Positions 3,938-21,629 of a stretch of 21,629 nucleotides of DNA are shown here, piece after piece. Source of the stretch: a virus; the IMG/VR virus record IMGVR_UViG_3300006480_000029, positions 1 through 21,629 of that record. The stretch is one strand, 5' to 3'. The notes under the pieces are model-generated. The model searched no databases. It saw nothing but the letters and a program-made list of their open reading frames with translations, and was not told the DNA's origin. Numbering within the stretch: position 1 is the stretch's first letter; each line of letters begins with the position of its first letter. A program made the translations under genes and the position numbers.

Positions 3938-5278
3938 ATGTTTCAAACACAACATTTACAAGAAAAGTGGCAGCCCGTATTAGACCATCCTGATTTACCA
4001 AAAATCAACGATGCGTATAAGAGAGCCGTAACCACTGTTATATTAGAGAACCAAGAAAAGGCACTTCGAGAAGATGCTTCTTTCTTGTCAGAAGGTGCTC
4101 CAGTAAACGCTACAGCTGCGGGTGCAAACCCAATGGCTAACTGGGACCCAATCTTAATTTCATTAGTTAGAAGAGCTATGCCAAACTTGATTGCATATGA
4201 CATTTGTGGTGTGCAACCAATGACTGGCCCAACTGGTTTAATCTTCGCAATGCGTTCAAGATTCGATGACCAGTCTGGTGCTGAAGCATTAGTAGATGAA
4301 GCTGATGCAGAACATTCTGCTGACAACGCATCATCTGGACTAACATCTGCACAACAAGGTACTAACCCAAGTGTGTTGAATGATTCACCAGAAGGTACTT
4401 ATACTTTTTCACAAGGTATGACTGCTGCACAGGCTGAAGCATTAGGTGATAGTTCTCAAAACAATTTCGCTCAAATGGCTTTCTCAATCGAGAAATCAAC
4501 TGTTACTGCGAAATCAAGAGCTTTAAAAGCCGAATACACAATGGAACTTGCTCAAGACTTAAAAGCGATTCATGGTCTTGATGCAGAAACAGAATTAGCT
4601 AACATTCTATCTGCAGAGATTCTTGCTGAAATCAACAGAGAAGTAGTTAGAAGAATTTACAGAACTGCCGTTGAAGGTGCTGCTGTAAACACTACTACTG
4701 CTGGTACTTTTGATTTAGACACAGATTCTAACGGTAGATGGTCTGTTGAAAAATTCAAAGGTTTAATGTTCCAAATAGAAAGAGATGCTAACGCTATCGG
4801 TCAAAAAACAAGAAGAGGCAAAGGTAACATTATCTTATGTTCTGCTGATGTTGCTTCTGCATTACAAATGGCTGGTATTTTAGATTACACTCCTGCATTA
4901 AACAACAACTTACAAGTAGATGACACTCAAAACACTTTCGCTGGTGTAATGAATGGTCGTTACAGAGTATATGTTGACCCATATGCTGCCAATGTAGCTG
5001 CAAGTCAATACTATGTTGTTGGATATAAAGGTACTTCACCTTACGATGCTGGTACTTTCTATTGCCCATATGTTCCACTACAAATGGTGAGAGCAGTTGG
5101 TGAGCAAACTTTCCAACCAAAAATCGGTTTCAAAACTAGATACGGTATGATTGATAACCCATTCGCTGTTGACGCTGGTGCGTTAGCTGACGGTAATGAT
5201 GCTGGTTCTTCAAATACTGCATTTACTAAAGAAACTAACCAATATTACAGAAGAGTTAAAGTCGCTAACTTAATGTAA
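3938..5278 (+). CDS. 23: Major capsid protein gp23
   Basis: This 446-residue protein is the T4-type major capsid protein, an HK97-fold subunit that builds the hexamers of the head. It opens with MFQTQHLQEKWQPVLDHPDL, typical of marine gp23 sequences, followed by NPMANWDPILISLVRRAMPN, TGPTGLIFAMRSRF and, near the C-terminus, the FKTRYGMIDNPF block. The short N-terminal delta region should be removed by gp21 at the L/I-x-E motif; LSE at residues 50-52 is the best candidate site. The length is a little below T4 gp23 (521 residues), as in other marine relatives. Codon use is less AT-biased than in neighbouring genes, as expected for a highly expressed gene. A strong hairpin terminator follows. 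Confidence 0.97.
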   Translation: MFQTQHLQEKWQPVLDHPDLPKINDAYKRAVTTVILENQEKALREDASFLSEGAPVNATAAGANPMANWDPILISLVRRAMPNLIAYDICGVQPMTGPTGLIFAMRSRFDDQSGAEALVDEADAEHSADNASSGLTSAQQGTNPSVLNDSPEGTYTFSQGMTAAQAEALGDSSQNNFAQMAFSIEKSTVTAKSRALKAEYTMELAQDLKAIHGLDAETELANILSAEILAEINREVVRRIYRTAVEGAAVNTTTAGTFDLDTDSNGRWSVEKFKGLMFQIERDANAIGQKTRRGKGNIILCSADVASALQMAGILDYTPALNNNLQVDDTQNTFAGVMNGRYRVYVDPYAANVAASQYYVVGYKGTSPYDAGTFYCPYVPLQMVRAVGEQTFQPKIGFKTRYGMIDNPFAVDAGALADGNDAGSSNTAFTKETNQYYRRVKVANLM

Positions 5279-5301: not shown

Positions 5302-5331
5302 AAAAAGGGGAGTTCGCTCCCCTTTTTTTTT
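5302..5331 (+). terminator. Rho-independent terminator after gene 23
   Basis: GGGGAG (5307-5312), a TTCG loop, then CTCCCC (5317-5322), extended by A-T pairs (five A before, T run after) and ending in nine T. It closes the head transcription unit and insulates the tail gene promoter that starts four bases further on. Confidence 0.95.
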
Positions 5332-5941: not shown

Positions 5942-5970
5942 TTGACAACTTTTTAATTATAGTATATAAT
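5942..5970 (+). promoter_or_regulatory. Perfect sigma70-type promoter for uvsY
   Basis: TTGACA (5942-5947), a 17-base spacer, and TATAAT (5965-5970): both hexamers and the spacing are full consensus. The expected start, about seven bases after the -10 box, falls at 5976-5978, on the uvsY ATG itself, so the mRNA appears leaderless. It should be read by host polymerase early, before gp55 acts. Confidence 0.85.
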
Positions 5971-5975
5971 ACCGT

Positions 5976-6386
5976 ATGGACTTACAAAAAATACAAGAAA
6001 TGTTTGATAAAGATTCCAAGATTGATGAAACTAACATCAATCTAGAGGAGACTAGAAGTCCAGCATTACTTAATAAATATTTAAAACTTTATACTAATTT
6101 TAGACTTATGTTAAGTAAAGCTGAAACTGATATGAAAATATTAAAAAAACAAAAATGGGAATACTATTCTGGTAAATCAGAGAAACCATTTGAGTTGAAA
6201 ATTCTTAGACAAGATATTCCAACATACTTAGAATCAGATGAAGATATGGTTAGATTACAATCTAAACTAGATTATCTTAAAGTTGTTTCTAGTTATTTGG
6301 AACACATAGTGAAAAATCTACACAATAGAGGATTCCAACTAAGAAACATAACAACTTGGATTAAATATACGGAGGGTGCATTATGA
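5976..6386 (+). CDS. uvsY: Recombination mediator UvsY
   Basis: This 136-residue protein matches T4 UvsY (137 residues) along its full length. It starts MDLQKIQEMFDKDSKID, has the central WEYYSGKSEKPFE block (YYSG is highly characteristic) and ends with the helical LHNRGFQLRNITTWIKYTEG. UvsY loads the UvsX recombinase onto single-stranded DNA covered by gp32 and so starts strand exchange and recombination-dependent replication. The start at 5976 aligns with the T4 N-terminus, so the lack of a leader is not an artefact of start choice. The stop overlaps the next gene as ATGA. UvsX is not in this window. Confidence 0.93.
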   Translation: MDLQKIQEMFDKDSKIDETNINLEETRSPALLNKYLKLYTNFRLMLSKAETDMKILKKQKWEYYSGKSEKPFELKILRQDIPTYLESDEDMVRLQSKLDYLKVVSSYLEHIVKNLHNRGFQLRNITTWIKYTEGAL

Positions 6387-7246
6387 GTATATGTGAAAAT
6401 AGTTACTATTATTTCATAGGTGCATTAAATGACCAACAATGTAATGCAATTATAGAGAGAGGGTTGTCTGACATGACTCTCACAGAACAAAAGAGTGGTA
6501 AACACGCCACAGATGCTACCACTTTTGATTTTAGACAAAAAGGTGGTGAAACATCTAATGCTGGTAATATCGCACAAAATCATTTGACTGCACAAGGCAG
6601 AAGAAAAAAAGGTATTAAAGAAGAAGATGTATATGTTAGAGATACTAAAGTTGGGTGGTTAGCAGATAAATGGATATATGATTTAATGCACCCATATATA
6701 CACGAAGCAAATCAAAAAGCAAACTGGAACTATCAATGGGATTTTTCTGAAACTTGTCAGTTTACAGTTTACAATCCAGGCCAATTTTATTCGTGGCATA
6801 CTGATGGTGGTTCAAGACCATATATACCATTTGACCCAACAGTAAAGGAACAAAGAAGAAAAGATAGTAATGGTAACTATATGATTGCAAAAGATGATAC
6901 TGGTAAAGAAATAAAGTTTGATAAAACATATAGAGACGGAAAATTTGAAGGTTTACCTAGATATATTCCAGCGCCTGGTTTTGTGGATAATCCAAATCAG
7001 TTCTGGAAGACTAGAAAATTATCCGTAACGGTAAATTTAACCAATCCAAAAAATTACAAAGGTGGTAATCTTAAATTTGATTTAGGGCCTCATATGGGTA
7101 ATAAAAGATATCACACTTGTACGGAAATAAGACCAAGAGGTTCTATCATAGTATTTCCATCATTTATACACCACTTGGTTACTCCAGTTACAGAGGGGAC
7201 TAGATATTCTTTAGTAATATGGAATTTAGGAAAGATGTTTAGATGA
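6383..7246 (+). CDS. 2-oxoglutarate/Fe(II)-dependent oxygenase (prolyl-hydroxylase-like)
   Basis: This 287-residue protein has the double-stranded beta-helix signature of Fe(II)/2OG dioxygenases. The metal ligands are in SWHTDGG (H139, D141), and the distal histidine is in FIHHLVTPV (probably H264). The 2OG-binding arginine follows in GTRYSLVIW (R274). This resembles PKHD-type hydroxylases that modify proteins or small molecules. About 60 extra residues (roughly 145-205, charged and proline-containing) separate the HxD motif from the second half of the fold and may shape the substrate pocket. It follows uvsY by an ATGA overlap, with GGAGGGTG at 6371-6378 as ribosome binding site. Such genes are common in marine T4-like phages; the substrate is unknown. 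Confidence 0.9.
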   Translation: MSICENSYYYFIGALNDQQCNAIIERGLSDMTLTEQKSGKHATDATTFDFRQKGGETSNAGNIAQNHLTAQGRRKKGIKEEDVYVRDTKVGWLADKWIYDLMHPYIHEANQKANWNYQWDFSETCQFTVYNPGQFYSWHTDGGSRPYIPFDPTVKEQRRKDSNGNYMIAKDDTGKEIKFDKTYRDGKFEGLPRYIPAPGFVDNPNQFWKTRKLSVTVNLTNPKNYKGGNLKFDLGPHMGNKRYHTCTEIRPRGSIIVFPSFIHHLVTPVTEGTRYSLVIWNLGKMFR

Positions 7247-7977
7247 TTGATACTGTAAAATTTTTCAAAGAAAAAAAGTATGTTCTCATAAAAGAGATGA
7301 TACCTAGAGATATTGCAAAAGTAGCAACTCAATATTCTCATTATGATAGAGCAAGTAATTTTCAACCAGAATCAGAAGGTGCTCAAATTCCAGGCAGTCA
7401 TAGTGTTTATGGTGACCCACTTATGGAAACACTTTTGAATTTTGGAAGAAAGACAATAGAAAAATCTACTGGATTAGAATTGTGGCCTACTTATTCTTAT
7501 TATAGATTATATAAAGTAGGTGATGTATTAAAAAGACATAAAGATAGACCATCTTGTGAGGTATCTATTACTTGTTGTTTAGGATATGATTACAAGGGTA
7601 AAAAAGATTACAACTGGGGTATGTTTGTTGGCCCAGAAGATGGTGAGAGAGGTGCAAAAGGAAAGATGATTCCAATGGAGCCTGGTGATGGAGTAATATA
7701 TCGTGGGTGTGAAGTAGAACATTGGAGAGAAGCGTTTAACGCACCAGAGGGTGCATGGCAAACACAAGTATTTTTACATTATGTAGACAAGAACGGCCCA
7801 TATGGTGATTTTTGTAAATTTGATTCTAGACCAGCACTTGGTCTTCCACACACCACAAAAGATAAGGAAAAGGTCAGAGCTGCAAATGAAGCAGATGCTA
7901 ACCAAGATAATAAAAGAGATGCTTTTCCAGAATTGAATAAAGAAGAAGTACCTTATGAAAATAGAGAAAAAAAATGA
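7243..7977 (+). CDS. Second 2-oxoglutarate/Fe(II)-dependent oxygenase-like protein
   Basis: This 244-residue protein follows the first oxygenase by ATGA overlap. Visible motifs are LKRHKDRPSCEVSIT with the HxD pair (H99, D101), then MEPGDGVIYRGCEVEHW with the distal His (H160). The C-terminal strand is WQTQVFLHYVD. The usual 2OG-binding arginine is not obvious: the expected place holds glutamine, and R162 or another residue may take its part. A charged tail of about 55 residues follows the domain. The two oxygenases are only distantly alike, so they are not a recent duplication. The 3' end overlaps uvsW by 23 bases. Substrate unknown; activity should not be assumed. Confidence 0.82.
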   Translation: MIDTVKFFKEKKYVLIKEMIPRDIAKVATQYSHYDRASNFQPESEGAQIPGSHSVYGDPLMETLLNFGRKTIEKSTGLELWPTYSYYRLYKVGDVLKRHKDRPSCEVSITCCLGYDYKGKKDYNWGMFVGPEDGERGAKGKMIPMEPGDGVIYRGCEVEHWREAFNAPEGAWQTQVFLHYVDKNGPYGDFCKFDSRPALGLPHTTKDKEKVRAANEADANQDNKRDAFPELNKEEVPYENREKK

Positions 7978-9394
7978 AGTATACATACGAATTGAAACAG
8001 AACCACATATTGCAAGAGAACTCTCAGAGTATTTTACCTTTGAAGTGCCTGGTGCAAGATTTATGCCCAGTTATAGAAACAAAGTATGGGACGGAAAAAT
8101 ACGATTATTCTCAGTTGCTACTGGACAAATCTATTTGGGATTGTTACCATACATCAGAGAGTTCTGTAAACGAAATGACATTAGATACGAATTAGATTTC
8201 AATACAAGACCAGAGGACATTGATGAATCAACTATTAAGTCATTTATTAAACACCTTAAAGTTCCATACAAAGCTCGTGATTATCAGATTTCTAGTATTC
8301 TTTATGGTGCCAGAAAATGTCGTGGTCTTTTTGTTTGTCCTACTGCATCTGGTAAATCGTTAATCATTTACGGTCTTACAAGATGGTGTCATTCAAAGAA
8401 TCTTAAAACTTTAATATTAGTACCTACAACAAGTTTAGTAGAACAAATGTATTCTGATTTTTTAGATTATGGTTGGTTAGAATCTTACATGCAAAAGATA
8501 TATCAAGGTCATGATAAAAGAGTTACCAAAGATGTTGTCATATCAACATGGCAATCATTATATAAGTTTCCCAAAAAATATTTTGAACAGTTTGGTTGTG
8601 TAATTGGTGACGAGGCACATACTTTTAAATCTAAATCTTTAACATCTATTATGAATAAATTACATTTATGTAAATATCGTTTTGGTTTGACAGGTACACT
8701 TGATGATTTACAAACACATAAACTAGTATTAGAAGGTGTATTTGGTGCAGTCAATAAAGTAATATCAACAAAAGAATTGATTGATAAAAAGACTTTATCA
8801 AATTTAAAAATTGATAGTTTGATTTTAGGATATAATGATAATGAATGTAAAATAGTAAAAGATTTAAAATATGCAGATGAGATAGATTATATTGTTAGAC
8901 ACAAACCGCGGCTTTTTTTTGTTAATAAATTATTGTCACCACTAAAAGGTAATACTTTAGTATTATATCAATTTGTAGAAAAACACGGAAAGCCTTTATA
9001 CGATTTAATATTGAACACTTATAAAGACAGAAAGGTATTTTTTGTAAGTGGTGATGTTGATGCATTGACTAGAGAAAAGATTCGTGCCATTACAGAAAAA
9101 TCATCTAATGCTATAATTGTAGCATCATACGGAACTTTCTCTACTGGTATTAATATTAAGAATTTACATAATATTATTTTTAGTTCACCATCTAAAAGTA
9201 AGATAAGAGTATTACAATCAGTAGGTCGTGGTTTAAGATTAGGTGATAATAAAAATGAATGTAAATTATTTGATATTGCTGATGATTTTACTTACAAAAG
9301 TAGACAAAATTTTACACTTCAGCATTTTATGGAAAGAATAAATATATACAACCAAGAACAATTTGACTATACAATTCACAGGATAAAATTATGA
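7955..9394 (+). CDS. uvsW: DNA/RNA helicase UvsW
   Basis: This 479-residue superfamily 2 helicase matches T4 UvsW end to end. The N-terminal substrate-binding domain contains the FxFxxPGARFMP and WDGKIRLF segments. Helicase motifs follow: Q-like DYQ (109-111), Walker A PTASGKS (129-135), DEAH (219-222), GLTGT (244-248), VASYGTFSTG (389-398) and the arginine-finger motif QSVGRGLR (421-428). UvsW unwinds R-loops and branched DNA, ending origin-dependent replication and driving branch migration. Length matches T4 (about 500 residues). It is translationally coupled to genes on both sides. Confidence 0.96.
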   Translation: MKIEKKNEVYIRIETEPHIARELSEYFTFEVPGARFMPSYRNKVWDGKIRLFSVATGQIYLGLLPYIREFCKRNDIRYELDFNTRPEDIDESTIKSFIKHLKVPYKARDYQISSILYGARKCRGLFVCPTASGKSLIIYGLTRWCHSKNLKTLILVPTTSLVEQMYSDFLDYGWLESYMQKIYQGHDKRVTKDVVISTWQSLYKFPKKYFEQFGCVIGDEAHTFKSKSLTSIMNKLHLCKYRFGLTGTLDDLQTHKLVLEGVFGAVNKVISTKELIDKKTLSNLKIDSLILGYNDNECKIVKDLKYADEIDYIVRHKPRLFFVNKLLSPLKGNTLVLYQFVEKHGKPLYDLILNTYKDRKVFFVSGDVDALTREKIRAITEKSSNAIIVASYGTFSTGINIKNLHNIIFSSPSKSKIRVLQSVGRGLRLGDNKNECKLFDIADDFTYKSRQNFTLQHFMERINIYNQEQFDYTIHRIKL

Positions 9395-9639
9395 TATCAC
9401 AAAAAGATTATGAAAATTTAAAAGAAATGTATGATTATAAAAGAAAAATAGAATACAATAAAGAGAAAACAAAAAAACGAATAGATGAAATGTATAAAGA
9501 GTTTAACATTCTTGGTGGAACAAAAGAAGAAATGTTTGACCATTTTTGGAGTAATGTTAATTATAACAATACAGAATTTGATGACCCACCAGCTGATTGG
9601 GTACCTGAAAACCAAGAATTAAGGTTATGGAATGAGTAA
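9391..9639 (+). CDS. Small charged protein downstream of uvsW, unknown
   Basis: I do not recognise this 82-residue protein. The first half is a lysine- and glutamate-rich, probably coiled-coil helix (YDYKRKIEYNKEKTKKRIDEM). The second half is more structured, with GGTKEEMFDHFW and a C-terminal FDDPPADWVPENQE segment. There is no signal peptide or membrane segment. It starts within the uvsW stop (ATGA) and ends overlapping the next gene (ATGAGTAA), so it is part of the uvsY-to-9632 unit. A role as an accessory to the recombination genes is only a guess from position. Confidence 0.75.
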   Translation: MISQKDYENLKEMYDYKRKIEYNKEKTKKRIDEMYKEFNILGGTKEEMFDHFWSNVNYNNTEFDDPPADWVPENQELRLWNE

Positions 9640-10072
9640 AGAAATGCAACCTAGAATATTTAAACTTTCAAATGGTGATGAAATCATTTGTATGGTACAC
9701 GATACATTAAATGATTATTTTAAAGTTTCATTACCTTTAAAGTTAGTAAATTTAACATCGATGAATAAAAAAGGTGAATATGAAGAAAATCTTGCTCTTC
9801 GTAAATGGACAACTTTTACTGATGAAAAAACATTTGCTATACAAAAAAGTCAAGTTGTAGTTCATCATAGTGTTACTTTAGGTTTAACAAAATATTATGA
9901 GTATATAATCAAAAGATTTAAAGATTTTGATAATCATTCTAGTTTAAAAAAAGCAAATGATGAATTAGAAAGTAAAATGTCTAAAGAACCAGATATATCA
10001 GAAGAAGATAAGTTTGAAGAACTAATTGATGAATATTGTAATTATTATCCAGAATCTAAATTTAAGAATTAA
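9632..10072 (+). CDS. Sm/Lsm-like protein, probable
   Basis: This 146-residue protein begins with FKLSNGDEIICMV, followed by DYFKVSLPLKLVN. That pattern resembles the Sm1 motif of Lsm/Hfq-type beta-barrels (hydrophobic, N/D-G, strand, turn). A second strand-rich segment (TFAIQKSQVVVHHSV) could be the Sm2 half. The C-terminal 50 residues are acidic and probably disordered or helical. Lsm proteins form rings that bind RNA; here that function is inferred from the fold-like pattern only. It is the last gene of the uvsY-uvsW unit. Its 3' end faces a perfect antisense promoter at 10091-10119. Confidence 0.7.
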   Translation: MSKEMQPRIFKLSNGDEIICMVHDTLNDYFKVSLPLKLVNLTSMNKKGEYEENLALRKWTTFTDEKTFAIQKSQVVVHHSVTLGLTKYYEYIIKRFKDFDNHSSLKKANDELESKMSKEPDISEEDKFEELIDEYCNYYPESKFKN

Positions 10073-10090
10073 TTCGTTGAATTCAAGAAG

Positions 10091-10119
10091 ATTATACCAA
10101 GTAAAAACCAATCTGTCAA
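10091..10119 (-). promoter_or_regulatory. Perfect antisense sigma70-type promoter
   Basis: Read on the minus strand: TTGACA (10119 to 10114), a 17-base spacer, and TATAAT (10096 to 10091), full consensus in both hexamers and spacing. Transcription would start near 10084 and run leftward, antisense to the 9632 gene and then towards uvsW. I see no minus-strand gene with a convincing ribosome binding site downstream, so the product would be an antisense or small RNA. It is divergent from the gp55 promoter, with 24 bases between the two -35 boxes. Confidence 0.7.
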
Positions 10120-10143
10120 TGCAAAATAAATATTAAAAGGTGA

Positions 10144-10171
10144 TTGACATATATTAAAAATATGATAGTAT
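10144..10171 (+). promoter_or_regulatory. Sigma70-type promoter for gene 55
   Basis: TTGACA at 10144-10149 with a likely -10 of TAGTAT at 10166-10171 (16-base spacer). The start would be near 10178, followed by AAAGGA and the gp55 ATG at 10191. The -35 box together with the antisense -35 box forms a 7-base inverted repeat, TGTCAAT (10114-10120) and ATTGACA (10143-10149). The -10 choice is less sure than the -35. Confidence 0.65.
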
Positions 10172-10190
10172 ATCATAAAGGAAAATATAG

Positions 10191-10733
10191 ATGGCTGCAA
10201 ATGCAAAACACTATGTTAATAATAAAGAATTTTTGGAGGCAATAATAGAGTGGAAAGAAAAGGTTAAAGAGGCAGAGTCCTCTGACGAAGATATACCACC
10301 AGTATCAGATTATATTGGTGAATGCTTTTTAAAAATTGCACAACACTTATCTTACAAACCAAATTTTATTAATTATACATTTAAAGAAGAAATGATTGGT
10401 GATGGTATTGAAAACTGTTTACAATATGTAAATAATTTTAATCCTGAAAAATCAAAGAATCCATTTTCATACTTTACACAAATAATATATTATGCTTTCA
10501 TTCGTAGAATTCAAAAAGAAAAAAAACAAACTCATGTAAAACATAAAATTATTGAGAAAAGTATGATGCCTACATTTGAACAGAATCCTTTAGACGAAAC
10601 CAATTATGGTAATCAGTATATGGATTATTTACAAAAAAATATGTTACCACAAGATGGTCAAGAGGTTTACAAAAGTAAATCTAAAAAAAAAGAAACTAAA
10701 AAAAGTTTAGAAAACTTTTATGAAGAGGAGTAA
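10191..10733 (+). CDS. 55: Late-transcription sigma factor gp55
   Basis: This 180-residue protein is the T4-type late sigma factor, which directs host RNA polymerase to TATAAATA late promoters. It matches T4 gp55 (185 residues): HYVNNKEFLEAIIEWK at the N-terminus, FKEEMIGDGIENC (about 64-76) and KNPFSYFTQIIYYAFIRRIQ (89-108), the last two being the compact sigma region-2-like core. The C-terminal SLENFYEEE resembles the short T4 gp55 tail that contacts the gp45 sliding clamp. It is driven by a host-type promoter, and its target boxes occur in this window before genes 22, 23 and the tail gene. A strong GAGGAG near its stop serves the next gene. Confidence 0.95.
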   Translation: MAANAKHYVNNKEFLEAIIEWKEKVKEAESSDEDIPPVSDYIGECFLKIAQHLSYKPNFINYTFKEEMIGDGIENCLQYVNNFNPEKSKNPFSYFTQIIYYAFIRRIQKEKKQTHVKHKIIEKSMMPTFEQNPLDETNYGNQYMDYLQKNMLPQDGQEVYKSKSKKKETKKSLENFYEEE

Positions 10734-10923: not shown

Positions 10924-11354
10924 TGTACGAATATAAATGTGAAATCATAAGAGTTGTTGATGGTGATACAGTAGATGTTAATATTGATTTAGGCTTTAAC
11001 ACTTGGTTGTGGAAAGAAAGAATCAGATTAAAAGGTATAGACACACCTGAATCGAGAACAAGAGACCCAGAGGAAAAGAAAGCTGGACTATATGCAAAAG
11101 ATGTAGTTGAGAATTTTTTACCAGTAGGTTCTACACAAACACTAAAAACTTTTAAAGATAAAAGTGGTAAGTATGGTAGAACACTCGGTGACTTTGTTAT
11201 ATTTGATGGTCAAGAAGATAGACAAAGAACTTTGGTAGAATATATGATACAACATTATATTGGTGTTGCATATGAAGGACAATCAAAAGAACTTATAAAA
11301 GAACAACAATTAAAAAATATATCATATTTAAAAGCTGAAGGATTAATTGACTAG
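10923..11354 (+). CDS. Staphylococcal nuclease-like protein (thermonuclease family)
   Basis: This 143-residue protein is a complete SNase-fold domain. It contains VVDGDTVDV (residues 11-19; D13 and D15), RLKGIDTPE (35-43; R35, D40, E43) and DKSGKYGRTLGDF with R86. These are the calcium and catalytic positions of the family, in almost the same numbering as the Staphylococcus enzyme. It would cut DNA or RNA non-specifically. There is no signal peptide, so it acts inside the cell; host nucleic acid breakdown or repair are possible roles. It sits between gene 55 and gene 47, overlapping both neighbours by a few bases, so it belongs to the recombination/transcription operon. Confidence 0.9.
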   Translation: MYEYKCEIIRVVDGDTVDVNIDLGFNTWLWKERIRLKGIDTPESRTRDPEEKKAGLYAKDVVENFLPVGSTQTLKTFKDKSGKYGRTLGDFVIFDGQEDRQRTLVEYMIQHYIGVAYEGQSKELIKEQQLKNISYLKAEGLID

Positions 11355-19408: not shown

Positions 19409-19752
19409 AGATAAAATGGATTATCTTTGGTTTCATCATTACTTGGTTATTCTTTTCTTATAAAGAAGCTATGTCTGATGATTGGTCTAGAAAAAGTGTA
19501 GGACAAGGTGTTGGTGGTTTCTTGGGTGTATTATCCACACAACTAATGGAAATCAACAACCCTTACGCTTTAGCAACAGGTGGTCTTTTAGGTATGTTTA
19601 TCGGTGGTGAAGTCGGTGAACATATGGATAATACCAGAGACCTTCACAAAATAGAATCGAATCGTTGTAAAGAATTTATTACAGGTGATAATCGTAAAGG
19701 TATGGCTTGTAGAGAAAACGGCGAATGGGTTGTTGTTAAAATGGAGAATTAA
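19405..19752 (+). CDS. Glycine-zipper membrane protein, 17 kDa surface antigen-like
   Basis: This 115-residue protein has an N-terminal hydrophobic segment (IKWIIFGFIITWLFFSY, residues 3-19). A glycine-zipper follows (VGQGVGGFLGVL at 32-43 and ATGGLLGMFIGGEVGEHMD at 57-75). The C-terminal module CKEFITGDNRKGMACRENGEWVVV (C88, C102) has two conserved-looking cysteines. This order resembles the Rickettsia 17 kDa surface antigen/SlyB group, though it lacks a lipobox. ATG 19405 overlaps the previous stop (ATGA) and is preferred to the upstream ATG at 19393. A membrane or outer-membrane role is likely. The alphaproteobacterial flavour of this family supports a SAR11-like host. Confidence 0.72.
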   Translation: MKIKWIIFGFIITWLFFSYKEAMSDDWSRKSVGQGVGGFLGVLSTQLMEINNPYALATGGLLGMFIGGEVGEHMDNTRDLHKIESNRCKEFITGDNRKGMACRENGEWVVVKMEN

Positions 19753-20010: not shown

Positions 20011-20039
20011 TTGACAATGTTATGAAAGCATAGTAATAT
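20011..20039 (+). promoter_or_regulatory. Early-type promoter with dyad in the spacer (copy 1)
   Basis: TTGACA (20011-20016), a 17-base spacer and TAATAT (20034-20039). It lies in a 28-base block (20008-20035) that recurs at 20982-21009 with four mismatches. The spacer carries TATG-AAAG-CATA (20021-20032), an inverted repeat where a regulator could bind. The start near 20046 precedes AAAGGA and the ATG at 20073. Confidence 0.7.
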
Positions 20040-20252: not shown

Positions 20253-21007
20253 TGAGTGAAATAAATGTTTTAAGTAAAGAAGAGTTATCATTGATAGTAA
20301 GTGATACTACTGCTTATGCTTTTGGTAAAAGCAGATTAAGTGATAAAGATAAAACTTTCTGTAAAGGAATGTTATCTACTGGTATGGGTAGTATCATTAA
20401 AGAAAAAACAATTTTAAATTTTTCTGATTATGAAGACGATACTGCACTTCACGGTTTTGATGGTTTTGAAAAAGATACAAAGAGAGCTGTTGAAATTAAA
20501 ACTGAAACTTTTAGTGACCACGGAAAAACTATTTCTAAATGTTCAGGTACTATGAATTTTGGTGATAATCAAGAAAGTGCATATGAAAAGTTTTCAGAGC
20601 AGAACCCAATAATATCAGTTACATCTTTTGCACCTAACGGAAAAGTAGTTGCTACTATTGAATTTGATTTTGCAGATTCAACTCTAGAAGAAGAATTTAA
20701 AATATATCAAGAGAGAAGACAACAAGATGTTAAAGAAGGTAAAAATAAAAATACTTCTTTATCAAGAAATTATAAAACTTTTGAAAATGCTAAAAGCTTT
20801 AGAGTAAGATTTTATAATAGTAAGTATGGTGATATGTTAGTTGGTCCTTATAGAAAACTTATAGAGGATACCATTTTATCTAAAAATAAACAAAAACTAG
20901 ATAGTTTAGATGAAAAAGAAATTAACAAAATGATGAGTGAAACTCTGACTTTAGAAAAAAAGAAAAATATTTTAGCAATGTCCCTTGACAACGCTATGGT
21001 AGCATAG
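20252..21007 (+). CDS. Uncharacterised protein with possible PD-(D/E)XK nuclease motif
   Basis: This 251-residue protein contains ALHGFDGFEKDTKRAVEIKT, where D70, E81 and K83 fit the D...E-x-K active site of restriction-endonuclease-like proteins. Strand-rich stretches follow (PIISVTSFAPNGKVVATIEF), then KSFRVRFYN and a helical lysine-rich C-terminus. Overall similarity to a known family is not clear to me, so nuclease activity is tentative. The frame can be read from a GTG at 20243, but ATG 20252 overlaps the previous stop (TAATG) and is preferred. Its last codons contain the promoter of the next gene, so the C-terminal sequence is constrained by two functions. Confidence 0.75.
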   Translation: MSEINVLSKEELSLIVSDTTAYAFGKSRLSDKDKTFCKGMLSTGMGSIIKEKTILNFSDYEDDTALHGFDGFEKDTKRAVEIKTETFSDHGKTISKCSGTMNFGDNQESAYEKFSEQNPIISVTSFAPNGKVVATIEFDFADSTLEEEFKIYQERRQQDVKEGKNKNTSLSRNYKTFENAKSFRVRFYNSKYGDMLVGPYRKLIEDTILSKNKQKLDSLDEKEINKMMSETLTLEKKKNILAMSLDNAMVA

Positions 21008-21013
21008 TATAAT
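20985..21013 (+). promoter_or_regulatory. Perfect early-type promoter with dyad in the spacer (copy 2)
   Basis: TTGACA (20985-20990), a 17-base spacer and TATAAT (21008-21013), full consensus. The spacer holds CTATG-GTAG-CATAG (20994-21007), a 5-base inverted repeat. It lies in the 3' end of the 20252 gene. The start near 21020 leads to AAAGGAG at 21038-21044 and the ATG at 21054. Confidence 0.88.
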
Positions 21014-21053: not shown

Positions 21054-21629
21054 ATGGTAGCAGCAGTAGAAACAATGGCATATGCAGGGGAAGTTCCTTG
21101 GCATGGTCTAGGTACGAAAGTACCACACGATTTATCAACAGATGAAATGTTGAAAAAATCTGGTCTAGATTGGACAGTAGAAAAAATACCATCTATGGTA
21201 AACTTACCAATTAGTCAAGATAAACCTGGTGGGTATAGACCTACTGGTTCTTATTCATTAGTAAGAAGTTCAGATAATAAAATCTTATCACCTCATGTAG
21301 GTAAAGATTGGAATCCAGTTCAGAACAAAGAAGCATTTGATTTCTTTTCAGAGTATGTAGAACAAGGCGATTTAGAGATGCATACTGCTGGGTCTTTAAT
21401 GGACGGTAAGATTGTTTGGGCACTTGCTAAAATTAAACAAGGCTTTGAGTTATTCAAAGGTGATGAAGTAGAAAACTATATGTTGTTTTCTAATCCACAC
21501 AAATTTGGTAAATCTATCGACATTAGAATGACACCAATTAGAGTAGTATGTAATAATACTTTAACTTTATCATTGAGTCAAAATAGTGATAAGATGGTTA
21601 CTGTTACTCACAGAAAACAATTTGATGCA
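21054..21629 (+). CDS. DUF932 phage/plasmid-like protein (3'-truncated)
   Basis: The first 192 codons of a gene that continues past the right edge. The N-terminus contains YAGEVPWHGLGTKV, the conserved PWHGLG block of the DUF932 family (a phage and plasmid protein family of unknown function). Later come the characteristic YSLVRSSDNKILSPHVGKDW, a GSLMDGKIVWALAKI segment, FSNPHKFGKSIDIRMTPIRV and VCNNTLTLSLSQ. The full proteins are usually around 300 or more residues, so roughly half is visible. A perfect host-type promoter and AAAGGAG ribosome binding site (21038-21044) indicate strong early expression. The function is not established. Confidence 0.92.
   Translation, partial: MVAAVETMAYAGEVPWHGLGTKVPHDLSTDEMLKKSGLDWTVEKIPSMVNLPISQDKPGGYRPTGSYSLVRSSDNKILSPHVGKDWNPVQNKEAFDFFSEYVEQGDLEMHTAGSLMDGKIVWALAKIKQGFELFKGDEVENYMLFSNPHKFGKSIDIRMTPIRVVCNNTLTLSLSQNSDKMVTVTHRKQFDA

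Follow-up and report, generated by a model that had tools for sequence, protein, structure and literature searches.

The window, as we call the whole stretch of 21,629 nucleotides that was analysed, comes from a phage related to HTVC008M, Mosig and cyanophages. Its plus strand carries the genes for the major head protein (3938-5278), UvsY (starting at 5976), a 2OG oxygenase (starting at 6383), a ferrochelatase-like protein (starting at 7243), the UvsW helicase (7955-9394, PHROG 16), an 82-residue protein without a PHROG match (9391-9639), a 146-residue Sm-like protein (9632-10072, PHROG 471), the late sigma factor gp55 (10191-10733, PHROG 234) and gp47 (starting at 11354). A strong intrinsic terminator, AAAAAGGGGAGTTCGCTCCCCTTTTT, lies at 5302-5327, 3′ of the major head protein gene.

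Between the Sm-like and gp55 genes, the minus strand at 10119-10091 reads TTGACAGATTGGTTTTTACTTGGTATAAT, which matches TTGACA/TATAAT at all 12 hexamer positions with a spacer of 17 nt. The -35 hexamer is at 10114-10119, and the -10 hexamer is preceded by TGG, making an extended -10, (TGG)TATAAT, at 10091-10099. From the -10 spacing, transcription is predicted to start at G10084, 12 nt 3′ of the Sm-like stop codon. The forward promoter of gp55, TTGACA-N16-TAGTAT at 10144-10171, is a 10/12 match with a 16-nt spacer and is conserved in relatives; the two promoters are divergent, with their -35 boxes 24 nt apart. The original prediction, a perfect-consensus minus-strand promoter that is a better match than its gp55 neighbour (12/12 against 10/12) and has no gene to serve, was borne out: in the window there is no usable open reading frame within 120 nt of the predicted start.

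The gene facing this promoter had also been called Sm-like, and the label held. The protein encoded at 9632 matches PF16243 weakly (21.1 bits against a cut-off of 29.4), its S-RIM8 counterpart strongly (150.8 bits, 1.2e-44). The AlphaFold model of the window protein matches the Sm/Lsm-like structure 3BY7 in Foldseek (E 4e-6, TM 0.88 by target length), and as modelled the protein has an Sm/Lsm-like fold. The C-terminal third is of low confidence and fast-changing, and the last residue, histidine in most distant relatives, is different in the window.

Conservation of the reverse promoter

A consensus match alone is weak evidence here, as sigma70-like sites are at most mildly enriched in the window. 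The whole window holds 106 of them against 105.5 in shuffles, which is no excess, and 16 sites with no more than two mismatches against 9.6 expected. Two other sites are perfect, both on the plus strand (5942 and 20985). The first, TTGACA-N17-TATAAT at 5942-5970, has its -10 ending 5 nt before the uvsY ATG; transcription would then begin at the start codon itself, so the uvsY mRNA may be leaderless. There is a near-identical copy of this promoter in two relatives. The second, at 20985-21013, lies upstream of a gene at 21054 and shares with a promoter-like site at 20011-20039 a dyad within the spacer (TTATGAAAGCATAG, CTATGGTAGCATAG) that looks like a repressor site.

The deciding evidence for the putative antisense promoter is comparison among relatives. 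Scans with four gp55 proteins gave 333 usable gp55 loci of marine T4-like phages (Kyanoviridae: pelagimyophages and cyanophages), falling into 104 clusters at 90% gp55 identity. The best reverse site was scored within a fixed interval, the 85 nt 3′ of the Sm-like stop, with dinucleotide shuffles as the control. A reverse sigma70-type site of at least 11/12 was found in 77 of the 104 clusters, against 0.26% of shuffles, and one of at least 10/12 in 95 of 104, against 3.3%; the clusters are related by descent and so are not independent counts.

Conservation of both hexamers was also checked directly. In a MAFFT alignment of 12 sequences from the window's clade they are the main invariant blocks (TGTCAA for the -35 and TATA-C for the -10, as read on the plus strand), the -10 keeping its position, while the spacer drifts. 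Similarly, 18 contigs with Sm-like relatives have both hexamers on the minus strand, 16-17 nt apart, with varying spacer letters. Sites of 10-12/12 are present in S-PM2, P-SSM2, P-SSM4, S-SM2, S-CAM1, S-SSM6b, Syn10, S-RIM8, P-SSM3, HTVC008M and Mosig, and in these 11 phages the predicted start is 8-38 nt 3′ of the Sm-like stop. In the complete genomes of HTVC008M, Mosig and S-RIM8, checked by eye, it is the sole reverse site of at least 11/12 outside long genes; in Mosig an annotated 36-residue hypothetical reading frame overlaps it. Melnitz has only a degenerate reverse site, and one cluster (L264) has none.

We conclude that the antisense promoter is very likely genuine and of the host-sigma70 type. 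It faces antisense into the Sm-like gene, as predicted, and its conservation in relatives points to selection. Nearly all known Kyanoviridae very probably make an antisense RNA at the 3′ end of this gene. Our literature search, partial in its coverage, did not find an antisense promoter described at the uvsW-gp55 junction, and an earlier mention is possible.

Anchoring to the Sm-like gene and the start-site dyad

The promoter keeps its place behind the Sm-like gene despite inserts of up to 900 bp before gp55. The predicted start lies a median of 25 nt from the Sm-like stop (5-95%: 8-41), whereas its separation from gp55 varies between 33 and 254 nt and can reach 865 nt. The insertions in L174, L153, L168 and L365 are all between promoter and gp55. 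S-CRM01 has an insertion as well; its extra gene is 3′ of the Sm-like gene and the reverse site (10/12), with its start-site dyad, follows the extra gene. A constant distance to the Sm-like stop and a variable one to gp55 make the promoter part of the end of the uvsW-Sm-like operon. Service to gp55 was ruled out for the reverse promoter, as the site follows the Sm-like stop.

The predicted start is itself conserved. TGT is found there, immediately after the -10, in 92 of 97 clusters, as the centre of an NTGT that was not a search criterion, and the window's relatives have it at the same position. The arms flanking it form stems of 4 or longer in 46 of 95 clusters; when the arms were re-dealt among clusters the mean was 13.5 and the maximum 22. 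The dyad clusters contain 24 different stems whose arms covary, and the excess of pairing is limited to the start site. The cyanophages have AACCNTGTNNGGGTT in common at this element, and the window's own clade is without the dyad.

The extended element of promoter plus dyad is also found in the sense orientation before ordinary genes. One such copy in S-RIM8 (L345:41930-41973) is upstream of a gene annotated gp88, and further sense copies on contigs are upstream of CpeT-like and nuclease-like genes. Elsewhere (L401:1177, L418:11627, L397:5722 and L419:3971) the element lies in reverse orientation, next to large late genes of structural type or behind them, and reads antisense into them. In HTVC008M (KC465899) two reverse promoters, at 19434-19462 and 23543-23571, match the consensus perfectly and have similar spacers; they lie at or inside late structural genes. 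A pattern scan found 28 extended elements away from gp55, some of them before ordinary genes. The idea of a broad class of dyad-bearing early promoters was scaled down because complete genomes carry about one copy of the element.

The simplest reading of the dyad is a start-site operator. It may instead form a hairpin in the plus-strand mRNA, but there is no U-run after the dyad, and the sense copies of the whole element favour a role at the level of the promoter.

The predicted antisense RNA and its possible role

The first 200 nt of the predicted RNA (minus strand, 10084-9885) have no open reading frame or terminator and appear unstructured. The Sm-like gene is the closest target, followed along its path by the 82-residue gene and uvsW. 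The one minus-strand reading frame of at least 40 residues near the site, 10069-10206, opens with a TTG that lies upstream of the predicted transcription start and so could not be served by the promoter; with no conserved or usable frame downstream, a small-protein gene or coding divergent transcript was rejected. A short RNA bounded by its own terminator was ruled out too, as no terminator for the RNA was found in the window and a minus-strand search of 87 loci gave one match. Shuffled sequences fold better than these first 200 nt (z +1.8), no conserved structure or consensus pairs were found across relatives, and Rfam returned no family match. The sequence simply tracks the antisense of the fast-changing Sm-like C-terminus. 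Of the original suggestion, a conserved antisense promoter is supported and a structured regulatory RNA is not. The missing reading frame, terminator and conserved structure make antisense transcription itself, or a duplex in cis, a likelier agent than a trans-acting small RNA.

We suggest that this host-sigma70-type promoter fires leftwards from just 3′ of the Sm-like stop. The resulting antisense RNA would run through the Sm-like gene in the direction of uvsW and would most likely act in cis, through polymerase collisions, RNA duplex or both. While the host sigma70 polymerase is active, the Sm-like/uvsW end of a uvsY-uvsW-Sm-like operon would be restrained; once the polymerase switches to gp55, the antisense promoter would fall silent and sense expression be released. 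In many relatives a DNA-binding protein may shut the promoter off through the start-site dyad. We infer the transcription, its early timing, the repression and the end of activity with gp55, as we do any tie between the antisense RNA and the Sm-like protein, and we put the probability of early restraint, silent at late transcription, at about one half.

There are pointers to such timing. In T4, UvsW is expressed from a late promoter, and it removes the origin R-loops from which early replication is primed (PMC3016281), which gives a reason for keeping UvsW low early. Kyanoviridae have no MotA/Asi homologues; their early promoters are of the host sigma kind and their late ones are NATAAATA (PMC2984593). 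In the window a late-promoter-like AATAAATA is found in the 3′ end of uvsW (9337-9344, plus strand), 54 nt upstream of the gene at 9391, and in HTVC008M, Mosig and Melnitz a late-like NATAAATA precedes the Sm-like gene by 57-59 nt, so that the motif is 54-59 nt upstream of one or the other gene in all four phages. The motif may partly reflect coding constraint on uvsW, and it is absent near the Sm-like gene in most of the cyanophages examined. Against early restraint, a perfect sigma70 promoter stands directly before uvsY in the window, so the operon's sense transcription may also be early; the degenerate site in Melnitz and the lack of one in L264 also count against it.

The main rival, which we think rather unlikely, is that the reverse promoter serves as the operon's boundary, with bound or initiating polymerase acting as a roadblock to sense transcription that insulates the early gp55 module from read-through, the RNA being inert. 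This would fit an unstructured RNA and a start that keeps to about 25 nt from the last stop codon even where genes are inserted before gp55, as well as the position of the S-CRM01 element behind an inserted gene, and no plus-strand terminator was found in the upstream stretch. However, an ordinary terminator would do this more simply, and such terminators occur in these phages, as at 5302-5327; a roadblock by polymerase initiating at an ordinary promoter is generally only partial.

It is improbable that the antisense RNA serves to protect the sense mRNA against host RNase E. Protection of mRNA by antisense transcription was proposed for the unrelated cyanophage P-SSP7 (Stazic 2016, as cited in PMC10976474), and antisense transcription has been observed in Kyanoviridae (PMC10976474). 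With such protection one would expect each genome to have many antisense promoters, however, and this element occurs about once; in three genomes no other intergenic reverse site is strong.

Slightly less probable still is a replication origin, in which the divergent promoter pair would supply a reverse RNA whose R-loop primes the leading strand, as at T4 oriF. T4 origins combine a promoter with an AT-rich unwinding element, and oriE needs an early promoter (PMC3016281); the site here is AT-rich and adjoins uvsW. On the other hand, no conserved unwinding element was found and genes do not switch strand at the site. GC skew is also unchanged there in HTVC008M and the window, but coding strand dominates skew, hence this is uninformative. 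A chance match in AT-rich DNA, where sigma70-like sites are as frequent as in shuffles, or a remnant of a divergent gene since lost, as had been offered alternatively, is very improbable given hexamers, spacing and position conserved family-wide around a drifting spacer, in relatives that have no minus-strand gene there except a 31-residue hypothetical in Melnitz.

Early restraint of the operon end by antisense transcription can be taken one step further, and more tentatively: a single dedicated, family-wide antisense promoter with its own operator might time the Sm-like protein and UvsW and hence the change from origin-driven to recombination-driven replication. The predicted antisense RNA offers a first handle both on the timing of uvsW-region genes in phages without MotA/AsiA homologues and on the role of the Sm-like protein, which is conserved and unstudied in this context. 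Kyanoviridae infect the most abundant marine bacteria.

Comparison with known systems

In its hexamers and spacing the element resembles the host sigma70-type early promoters of T4-like phages, and its sense copies drive ordinary genes. Unlike ordinary early promoters, it reads antisense from the end of an operon and in many relatives has a dyad at its start site. It also shares with the T4 R-loop origins oriF/ori(uvsY) and oriG a promoter in AT-rich DNA; the R-loops of these origins are cleared by the UvsW helicase, whose gene adjoins the site here, but the origins differ in that we found no unwinding element at the antisense promoter.

Antisense transcription of T4 gene 32 (Belin 1987, as cited in PMC2988021) is a similar case in that a replication/recombination gene of a T4-type phage is the target, though the gene and the phage group are different. 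Closer is CfrI of S-PM2 (Millard 2010, as described in PMC2984593), an RNA of about 225 nt that is made during infection of Synechococcus and lies opposite psbA and a gene for a homing endonuclease. CfrI is a precedent for antisense RNA in Kyanoviridae. The element described here differs from it in lying behind the Sm-like gene, next to gp55, and in being nearly family-wide, S-PM2 included. Antisense RNAs in T4-like phages have so far been single cases; the one predicted here would be shared, at one fixed place, by almost all Kyanoviridae.
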